Assembly (NCBI RefSeq): GCF_027490375.1
Contig: NZ_JAIXYH010000076.1
Location: 1 to 64,000 of the forward strand
Direction: 5' to 3'
Origin: Flavobacterium sp.
Lineage (GTDB): Bacteria; Bacteroidota; Bacteroidia; Flavobacteriales; Flavobacteriaceae
DNA length: 64,000 nucleotides
Position 1 is the stretch's first letter. Every line of letters starts with the position of its first letter. The position numbers and the translations under genes are program-made. The notes beneath the pieces are model-generated. The model was not told the DNA's origin, made no database searches, and worked only from the letters and a program-made list of their open reading frames with translations. Below, piece by piece: positions 5,279 through 59,241 of this stretch.

Positions 5279-5520
5279 GGTAACGTTTTTCGCGTTAGGT
5301 GGCGGCGCGAAAATAAAAACGCCAAAGCGCTATTGAGGCTTGGCGTGTTGTTTTGCTTACACCAATTTTTTTCGAAATGATTTATGGGCTTTGCTTTTAA
5401 ACGGCGACCAGCGGAAGCCCGTTTACTGCCTAGCCGAAAAGCGATTTGGCGTTTTTATTGCAGCAAGCAACCGGCGGCGGCTTCTCGCATATTTCCACTG
5501 AATGAGCCGCCGAAACGCCC
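5279..5520 (-). repeat. GGGC-type structured intergenic element (member E4)
   Basis: Minus strand: GGGCGTTTCGGCGG...CAGTGGAAATATG...GCCGCCGCCGG; stem AATAAAAACGCCAAA (5312-5326)/TTTGGCGTTTTTATT (5445-5459); 3' CACCTAACGCGAAAAACGTTA. Confidence 0.6.
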
Positions 5521-5617
5521 AAATTAAAAAAGTAGGCGTTAGAATTAGATTCGATGAATATTAGTGAAATTCTTAAGCACTAAATTTTATTAAATAATTG
5601 ATTTACAAATATATTAC

Positions 5618-13878: not shown

Positions 13879-14095
13879 AACCTGAGTTCGATTTAAAAAT
13901 TGCGGTCAGAAAACAGATAAATGGTTGAATACAAGGCAGATTTTTATTGGGATACTGTAGTATCGCAAAAAAATCTAACGAAGTAGGCAGCCGTTTATCT
14001 GTTTAGCGTGGATGTTGTTTCTTTCCATTGCTATATGATTTTACAATTCGTTGATTTCAAGCGATCTGACAAAAATTTTTAATCGAACTCAGGTT
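13879..14095. mobile_element. 217-bp MITE-like element, copy 1
   Basis: Bounded by AACCTGAGTTCGATTTAAAAATT / AATTTTTAATCGAACTCAGGTT; same length and mostly the same sequence as 58401..58617; no ORF. Confidence 0.8.
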
Positions 14096-24279: not shown

Positions 24280-24479
24280 CATAACGTTTTTTCTGGAAAC
24301 GATTGCTGCGGTAAGGACAGCAGCGGATAGCTTTTGCACGGAATTTTTACAAGTGACGGCAGCGGCAATGCGATAGCACGTGCAAGCGCCTGACACTTGA
24401 AAAATTCCGTGCAAAACTTGCAGCGCATGGCCTGACGGCGGTGATGTACTTCCACCGAACGCGTACCGCCGGACCGCCC
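24280..24479 (-). repeat. GGGC-type structured intergenic element (member E1)
   Basis: Minus strand GGGCGGTCCGGCGG...CGGTGGAAGTACATCACCGCCGTCAGGCCATGCGCT...CCGCTGCTGTCCTTACCGC; stem TTTTGCACGGAATTTTT-A-CAAGTG (24332-24355)/CACTTG-AAAAATTCCGTGCAAAA (24394-24416). Confidence 0.75.
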
Positions 24480-32275: not shown

Positions 32276-32293
32276 CGACACTGCTTGACATGT

Positions 32294-32427
32294 GGGCGGT
32301 CCGGCGGCAAACTTACCGTGGAAATACATAGCCGCCGTCAGGCCATACGCTATATCTTTTGCCTACGTACCTCCGGCAAAAGGATGCCGCTGCTGTCCTT
32401 ACCGCGAAAGCCGTTATCAAACGTTAG
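32294..32427 (+). repeat. GGGC-type structured intergenic element (member E2)
   Basis: GGGCGGTCCGGCGG...CCGTGGAAATACATAGCCGCCGTCAGGCCATACGCTATAT; stem CTTTTGCC/GGCAAAAG (32356-32363/32375-32382); CCGCTGCTGTCCTTACCGCGAAAGCCGTTA...AACGTTAG. Confidence 0.75.
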
Positions 32428-32671: not shown

Positions 32672-32880
32672 TCTTAATACTTTTCCCGTGTGAGCGGGCG
32701 CAACGGCATCCTTTTAGGCGTACTCGAATTTCCACTAAATAATGGCCTAAAAGATACAGTGGAGCACGCGACGGCGCTAAGGCACGTCCAAATTCGATTA
32801 ACATGCGTTGGTGTGTTTGTTAATTGGAAAAGCTTGCACGGGCACTTTGTGGGTTTGTTACGTTGAGCGCCGGCACACCC
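32672..32880 (-). repeat. GGGC-type structured intergenic element (member E3)
   Basis: Minus strand GGGTGTGCCGGCGC...GTATCTTTTAGGC-loop-GCCTAAAAGGATGCCGTTGCGCCCGCT; stem 32711-32719/32745-32753. Confidence 0.55.
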
Positions 32881-32891
32881 AAATAAAAAAA

Positions 32892-58143: not shown

Positions 58144-58207
58144 ATTTATATGGGCACATCCTGCCGCTCATTTAGTGGAAAATTGCGCATGCGGCAGGTC
58201 GGGCTGT

Positions 58208-58368
58208 ATACCAATTAGATTTATAAAAAAGTCCAATAAAAAAATGTTTTTAAGCCATAACTGCTTTAAAAAAATCTTCCGTAGCGCTGCTATGCAACAT
58301 TTTTTTGCATTGTTCTGACTTAAAAACAACCTTTTTTCTTAAGCCTATTTTATAAATCTAATTGGTAT
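58208..58368. mobile_element. 161-bp MITE-like unit with 21-bp perfect terminal inverted repeats
   Basis: ATACCAATTAGATTTATAAAA ... TTTTATAAATCTAATTGGTAT; internal TGTTTTTAAG/CTTAAAAACA. Confidence 0.75.
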
Positions 58369-58400
58369 TCACTTCAAGGCGCAGCGTACTCCAGCGTTTC

Positions 58401-58617
58401 AACCTGAGTTCGATTTAAAAATTGCGGTCAGAAAACAGATAAAAGGTTGAATACAAGGCAGATTTTTATTGGGATACTGTAGTATCACAAAAAAATCTAA
58501 CGAAGTAGGCAGCCGTTTATCTGTTTAGCGTGAAAACAGTTCCTTTTTATTGCTATTTAGTTTCACAATTTTTTGATTTAAAGCGATCTGACAAAGATTT
58601 TTAATCAAACTCAGGTT
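58401..58617. mobile_element. 217-bp MITE-like element, copy 2
   Basis: AACCTGAGTTCGATTTAAAAATT ... TTTTTAATCAAACTCAGGTT; matches 13879..14095. Confidence 0.8.
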
Positions 58618-58880: not shown

Positions 58881-59140
58881 ACTTGCGTTTACTTGAGCAC
58901 GTTCCCCGCGGCCGCGATTGCAGTGGAAATACGTGCGTAGCAGCTGCGTGTGAAGGCTATTTGATTGAAGCGACCAACGGAAGCTGCAAGCAAATATTGC
59001 CGTAACCGCAACTTGCGTTTACTTGAGCACATTCCCCGCGGCCGCGATTACAGTGGAAATACGGGCGTAGCAGCTGCGTGTGAAGGCTATTTGATTGAAG
59101 CGACCAACGGAAGCTACAAGCAAATATTGCCGTAACCGCA
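58881..59140. repeat. 130-bp tandem duplication (2 copies, 4 substitutions)
   Basis: 58881-59010 and 59011-59140, each ACTTGCGTTTACTTGAGCAC...GCCGTAACCGCA. Confidence 0.95.
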
Positions 59141-59241
59141 ACTGCAAGCGCGGATTGCAACGTAAAGCGCGAAATGCCGCCCAAATAAAAACTATTCTGC
59201 CTTTTGATATCGGTGAAGAGTTACTCTGCAAATGCAATTCT

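Follow-up and report, generated by a model that had tools for sequence, protein, structure and literature searches.

A 64,000-nucleotide stretch of a Flavobacterium genome (the window) contains two elements, E1 and E2, in which similar sequence surrounds central hairpins that are unrelated to each other. What kind of element is this, and is its pairing selected or a by-product of the way in which such sequences arise? The hairpins are readily found. In E1, TTTTGCACGGAATTTTT (24332-24348) pairs with AAAAATTCCGTGCAAAA (24400-24416), followed by one bulged A and an inner stem of CAAGTG (24350-24355) with CACTTG (24394-24399) around a 38-nt loop; in E2, CTTTTGCC (32356-32363) pairs with GGCAAAAG (32375-32382), with 11 nt between the arms. 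The common flanks hold up as well, with one complementary stretch of 70 nt (80%) and another of 30 nt (87%).

E1 and E2 are copies of the Flavo-1 repeat

A scan of the window with all of Rfam assigned E2 to RF01705 (Flavo-1) with 45.5 bits, above the gathering score of 42. E1 scored 33.8 bits, below this cut-off for the sole reason that its hairpin tip is very long. At gathering, tRNA and Flavo-1 were the only families matched in the window, and none of the Rfam ribozymes or riboswitches, known three-way-junction ones included, matched around E1-E2 even at E up to 10. This genome has 78 Flavo-1 matches, 54 of them over the cut-off, and for a protein neighbouring the elements the closest named relatives are at ~71-73%, nearly all in Flavobacterium or Flavobacterium metagenome-assembled genomes. 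Flavo-1 was put forward as an RNA motif (PMC2864571) and is curated by Rfam as an sRNA. In the transcriptome of F. psychrophilum, Flavo-1 matches lie sense or antisense without preference and many are untranscribed; some 5' transcribed regions coincide with matches (PMC9723704). The repeat is already known, but the three-armed fold reported here is previously undescribed: we found no earlier account of such an architecture in the open-access literature on Flavobacterium intergenic repeats.

A covariance model of the full element (R1) located the copies and relatives of Table 1. Among them is E3, the third full copy; it lies 257 bp away from E2, is oppositely oriented and had been missed in the initial annotation.

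Table 1. Copies, component parts and relatives of the element in the window
Feature	Position	Strand	Evidence and remarks
E1, complete three-way-junction element with enlarged P1	24295..24480	+	model R1, 84.2 bits, E 3.4e-22
E1 P0, 5' strand GCGGT	24308..24312	+	pairs with ACCGC 24473-24477; P0 covaries over 38 copies
E1 P0, 3' strand ACCGC	24473..24477	+	followed by CCA and an A-tract
E1 P1, Flavo-1 core hairpin	24314..24433	+	AGG/CCT base, purine 3x3 internal loops, long apical stem
E1 P1 apical stem, 17+6 bp (the hairpin first annotated)	24332..24416	+	sequence; insert also in orthologues of two sister species
E1 loop, apparent nested second core GTGACGGCAGCGGCAATGC..CGCCTGACAC	24353..24397	+	match of 5' half to core arm
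E1 P2 hairpin CGGCGG..CCGCCG, TTCCACCG in loop	24436..24471	+	fold and covariation
E2, complete three-way-junction element	32293..32418	-	R1, 106 bits, E 2.4e-28; P0 GCGGT/ACCGC, P2 CGGCGG/CCGCCG
E3, complete element	32675..32881	+	R1, 88.9 bits, E 1.7e-23; P0 GTGTG/CACAC, long P2
Diverged relative, overlapping a tandem 130-bp repeat	59025..59183	+	R1, 29.0 bits, E 1.4e-6
Remnant: P2-like hairpin GGCGGC..GCCGCC and AACGCCCA tail	5436..5521	+	R1, 19.8 bits, E 5.6e-4

Other repeats were noticed in the window. At 58150-58400 (minus strand), a diverged Flavo-1-like element (GCGGCAGG..CCTGCCGC hairpin, GTCGGGCTGTA) is discernible by eye, with no R1 match there; it is interrupted by a MITE-like insert of ~165 bp with the terminal inverted repeat CCAATTAGATTTATAAAA (58205-58371). 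A 217-bp dispersed repeat with terminal inverted repeats AACCTGAGTTCGATTTAAAAATT occurs at 13879-14095 and 58401-58617 (91% identical), and on other contigs as well.

The element is a three-way junction

On its purine-rich strand, the element has the formula P0-A-P1-GA-P2-G-P0-CCCA, that of a three-way junction. Laid out over 56 copies from this genome, it reads from 5' to 3': GGTAACGATTTTC (in about half of the copies), five nucleotides of P0, A, the base triplet of P1, P1 and the complement of the triplet, GA, the P2 hairpin, G, the complement of P0 and CCAAA. P1 corresponds to the Flavo-1 hairpin and contains two 3x3 internal loops rich in purines; the taxonomic home of element and motif is identical. 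Rfam, by contrast, models a 76-nt hairpin with unpaired flanks; the junction and two helices are missing from it, namely the 5-bp closing stem P0 and P2, a second hairpin whose sequence is almost free. The stretches described initially as conserved flanks are indeed conserved, but they are not plain flanks, since GGGCGGTCCGGCGG..CCGCCGTC comprises hairpin P2 and the closing stem P0. Copies differ in size through hairpins added or replaced at the P1 tip and at P2, and the contrast between the inserts of E1 and E2 is explained by the fact that both places accept almost any hairpin.

The least biased evidence comes from P0, because it lies outside the Rfam model and was not used in picking copies. 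Over 38 copies with 15 different stems, among them GCGTT/AACGC, GGGTG/CACCC, GCGGT/ACCGC, GCAGT/ACTGC, GTGTG/CACAC, GCGCG/CGCGC, GGGTA/TACCC and GCAAT/ATTGC, 96.8% of positions are paired, and two-sided changes are seen at four of the five positions. In the sister species, 93.7% of P0 positions are paired (38 copies). For P2, 43 unselected copies have 34 to 37 paired members per position compared with 18 to 32 in shuffles, and 2 to 17 two-sided changes per position. Covariation in P1, whose copies were found with a structure-scoring model that inflates its pairing, involves the triplet at the base together with the next two pairs, and also the GC step that separates the internal loops; one position uses A-T, T-A, G-C and C-G.

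For 29 complete copies (alignment A1, in which P2 is represented by copies chosen for at least five of six P2 pairs), 97.1% of cells are paired against 76.2% when shuffled. Two-sided cells number 135 against 41, pairs with a two-sided change 19 of 24 against 12.0, and the covariation score is 0.534 against 0.162. When the partner strand is slid by one to three columns, pairing falls to 34-50%. Given the same alignment, RNAalifold returned the same three-way junction unprompted, with compensatory change in 22 of 27 pairs, three apical P1 pairs included. The initial annotation had named missing covariation among genomic copies as the outcome that would count against it; copies from this genome do covary, most strongly in P0, the P1 base and P2, the parts taken for flanks. 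Pairing is kept while sequence changes across the family, but E1 and E2 are not themselves the evidence, because two copies cannot show covariation and the E1 stem consists of P1 with an apparent nested copy.

Beyond the helices, P1 has an invariant G.A at two positions (55 of 56 copies), and one A.G changes as a unit, either flipping to G.A or turning into G-C; together, these patterns imply that the shape of one strand is constrained. Comparison of the copies shows that one strand forms a three-way junction. A pseudoknot between a TTTCCAC loop motif and a GTGGAAA arm was considered and rejected; it is perfect in some copies only and absent from the subfamily of E2.

The 38-nt loop of E1 is not single-stranded as first described, but folds. 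In its 5' half, 14 of 15 positions match the core arm of another copy (GTGACGGCAGCGGCA / GTGACCGCAGCGGCA), a value equalled by 0 of 300 shuffles; the match of the 3' half to the core is not significant. The large insert of E1 thus looks like P1 whose loop harbours a nested second core. Folding of E1 is far more stable than that of its shuffles (z -4.6 as RNA, z -5.9 as DNA). E2 folded alone does no better than its shuffles (z -0.4), single-sequence folding being uninformative here, so that its structure rests on comparison and not on energy.

Copies are conserved in place

Two sister species, G147 and G393 (~96% and ~93% identical in the E1 region), allow copies to be followed at orthologous sites. 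E1 is orthologous in all three species and its insert is common to all. Strict keeping of its 17-bp stem, however, does not hold, since the 3' arm changes from GTGC to GGGT in G147 and G393, which produces one G-T wobble and one A-G mismatch, neither of them compensated.

Over 22 orthologous copies, nearly all from one species pair, stems changed at 10 of 975 positions, or at 4 of 927 when one doubtful low-identity pair is left out; without that pair, P0 shows 0 changes in 210. Intergenic flanks changed at 328 of 4587 positions (276 of 4404 without the doubtful pair), P1 tips at 48 of 744 (47 of 722), P2 loops at 57 of 549 (50 of 524) and coding flanks at 288 of 5770, whereas the junction and internal-loop bases changed at 8 of 430. 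Divergence therefore amounts to 0.4-1.0% in stems, 6-10% in loops and 6-7% in intergenic flanks; stems are ~15-fold more conserved than flanks and evolve more slowly than coding DNA. Discovery of the copies in one of the two species can bias stem conservation up to two-fold, but not tenfold or more. The slowness of the stems implies that each copy is under selection where it stands.

Not a single pair-keeping two-sided change was seen between these orthologues. This bears on the idea that the pairing is a by-product of palindrome correction, in which template switching during replication copies one arm onto the other with no selection. Such a process could account for stems that vary with their pairing kept and for the rarity of G-U intermediates. 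It predicts, however, that two-sided changes should be common and that stems should evolve as fast as loops, when in fact they evolve 10 to 20 times more slowly, and it leaves the invariant G.A mismatches unexplained; we regard it as very improbable. The missing two-sided changes argue instead for purifying selection, with the covariation built up over longer times. Where the initial annotation offered structure either selected or mechanistically generated, the first is favoured and the second disfavoured, because the stems of orthologues change far less than their surroundings. By this measure of substitution, purifying selection on stems and junction is shown to hold the orthologous copies, and conservation in place, with stems slower than coding DNA, makes passive junk unlikely.

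The right flank of E1 differs among G000, G147 and G393, partly through other dispersed repeats; in G147 and G393 (L092, L093) these are ~100-220 bp long and are found at many loci. The idea that E1 marks a rearrangement breakpoint was set aside, as clear breaks on both sides numbered only 2, compared with 19 syntenic sites.

Spread across genomes and the question of mobility

In this genome, R1 gave 115 matches over the 1.19 Mb covered, which make up an over-sampled third of it. Copy number, taken from 35% of the genome and from match lists, is a lower bound and comes to about a hundred or more per genome. Of 61 Flavobacterium genomes, 57 had R1 matches; across the order Flavobacteriales, matches came from 15 of 62 genera and 40 of 148 genomes. 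Flavo-1 copies number in the tens in most Flavobacterium genomes and are missing from a few, so Flavobacterium as a genus can do without the element. In relatives from other species, P0 is retained and the P2 hairpins are quite different. In a Flavobacterium weaverense copy (L375, 4606-4767, minus strand), P2 is a 27-bp perfect hairpin with a terminator-like stem and A- and T-runs.

Because near-identical copies occupy unrelated loci, spread by copying must have occurred. The element might accordingly be a mobile repeat of the REP or MITE type that is not autonomous and relies on a single-strand (HUH-type) or other transposase acting in trans, in which case the fold would be the transposase substrate and the copies would have no host role. 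This account would suit the ~100 or more copies, the subfamilies whose near-identical members sit at unrelated loci, the sharp and conserved ends (GGTAACG..CCCAAA) without target-site duplication, the copy numbers from 0 to tens or more among Flavobacterium species and the lack of G-U pairs. A passive copy would not be expected to show ~15-fold conservation of stems over flanks at orthologous sites. Moreover, the ~20 fully alignable sites are all occupied in the sister species, a sample biased to occupied sites, and no clean empty site was found between G000, G147 and G393 in stretches chosen around elements. Among 100 copies, no repeated 5-7 nt k-mer exceeded permutation at any offset pair, and the element ends have in common at most a short T-tract and GG.

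A source of mobility was sought in RAYT/Y1 transposases. The 20 loci scanned yielded only 3 Flavo-1 matches in ~120 kb, about background density, and this link was rejected; RAYTs of the genus carry different hairpins, and some copy-rich species have no Y1 match at all. The consensus ends and stems lack the tag of REP hairpins, a GTAG or CGTC tetranucleotide at the base of a hairpin of 20-40 nt. Carriage by phages or plasmids was likewise rejected, as BLAST of phage and plasmid records gave no match; 2.9 million viral contigs gave 9 pattern matches. Taken together, a mobile repeat without host role is unlikely, though less so than palindrome correction, and constraint in place implies that the copies now matter where they are located.

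The only two Y1_Tnp matches of this genome (L089, 6130-6567, minus strand, and L090) have degenerate-looking motifs, one without an obvious HUH motif and the other seemingly without the catalytic tyrosine. Group-5-like RAYT genes (YIHNNP motif) of Flavobacterium (L072, L080, L077, L084) are flanked by hairpins such as CCCGATAGCGCGGATTTGCAATCCGTGCCCACAAA and GCTAGCGCGAGC..GCTCGTGC. Group-5 RAYT hairpins (..ATAGCGCGG..CCGTGCCCACAAA) are distinct from Flavo-1; short strings in common with the 3' part of some copies are a lead only.

Folded DNA or folded RNA

Placement relative to genes, from simple ORF calls, was available for 90 copies with both neighbours called: tandem genes flank 40 of them, convergent genes 32 and divergent genes 18, compared with a background of 59%, 21% and 20% of intergenic length, respectively. 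Convergent intervals are thus enriched, with a median of 16.5 nt from the copy to the nearest stop, while divergent intervals hold their background share and are not depleted. Between tandem genes, 18 copies are sense and 22 antisense, so that gene direction is ignored. These counts would place ~44% of copies off any mRNA in the folding orientation. In P0 and P1, 15 of the 1073 standard pairs are G-U (1.4%), compared with 38 of 432 (8.8%) in tRNAs of the same genomes; an RNA selected on one strand should tolerate G-U, and its scarcity speaks against RNA. Neither strand has the layout of a terminator, a G+C-rich stem with a T-run; the element finishes in CCCAAA at its 3' end and is T-rich at its 5' end. 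Replication-strand bias was not detected for 58 copies in the closed genome G010 (p 0.69), which leaves a lagging-strand single-stranded form unsupported.

The element could nevertheless act in RNA, with read-through transcripts from either side carrying the three-way junction, for example stabilising 3' ends bidirectionally or marking a site of pausing or processing; it could also be an sRNA, the type given by Rfam. Curation as an sRNA and the proposal as an RNA motif (PMC2864571) point this way, as do the convergent enrichment close to stops, the RNA fold of E1 and the coincidence of some F. psychrophilum 5' transcribed regions with matches (PMC9723704). Yet orientation to genes is random, divergent intervals are not depleted, G-U pairs are nearly absent, both strands lack a terminator U-run, and the published matches are indifferent to transcription (PMC9723704). 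We consider an RNA element rather unlikely, if still the strongest competitor; the transcript assumed in the initial annotation is unsupported, as is the sRNA type in Rfam, against which context and literature argue.

Orientation-free placement, rare G-U, the missing terminator and the F. psychrophilum data instead favour a role at the level of DNA. E1 and E2 belong to an intergenic element that is dispersed in the genome and has the Flavo-1 motif at its core, and for this element we prefer a host-maintained DNA structural site to an sRNA, with confidence that falls just short of even. Two observations could be turned against a DNA site: G-U avoidance could reflect the use of both strands as RNA, and convergent enrichment fits a 3'-UTR role too.

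Discussion

It is by inference that we take the folded molecule to be DNA, propose a protein as its reader and assign a role to the element. Selection would act on folded DNA, either an extruded cruciform or a strand exposed in replication or in supercoiled intergenic DNA. A putative cellular protein would recognise its shape and G.A loops, as for REP/BIME hairpins or folded attC sites, and the P1 tip and P2 would serve as stuffing that stabilises the fold. The likely role would be that of a chromosomal DNA-structure or protein-docking site, formerly spread by copying.

Several known systems are similar in part. Integron attC sites also have conserved ends and a variable terminal hairpin, and are read by shape as a folded single strand; the present element differs in being dispersed as single copies with a three-way junction, with no cassettes and no integrase seen. 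Like the element, BOX and ERIC elements are intergenic repeats of modular structure, ~100-200 bp long, whose stems covary, although we know of no sequence relation and the phylum is different. REP/BIME and RAYT-associated hairpins (PMC3733652, PMC6006769) resemble the element in several ways: their intergenic hairpins number about a hundred or more, the target is not duplicated, intervals between convergent genes are enriched for copies, and one strand has conserved mismatches. In contrast to the 20-40 nt REP hairpin, the element is a three-way junction of 120-200 nt that has neither a conserved GTAG tag nor a CGTC-tagged hairpin, is unlinked to RAYT genes and is conserved in place.

In its boldest form, the DNA reading holds that a listed 'small RNA' family is a DNA-structure site, and that each Flavobacteriales chromosome bears at least about a hundred three-way-junction cruciforms, each selected in place and read by a protein, with exchangeable hairpin modules; this may be so, but on balance we doubt it. 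Flavo-1 is among the more abundant listed bacterial sRNA families and is without known function. The missing helices provide a sharper model, and strand-specific tests can now separate action as RNA from action as DNA. If the element acts as DNA, the family has been assigned to the wrong kind of molecule, and a large environmental clade that includes fish pathogens would possess an uncharacterised protein that reads DNA structure.
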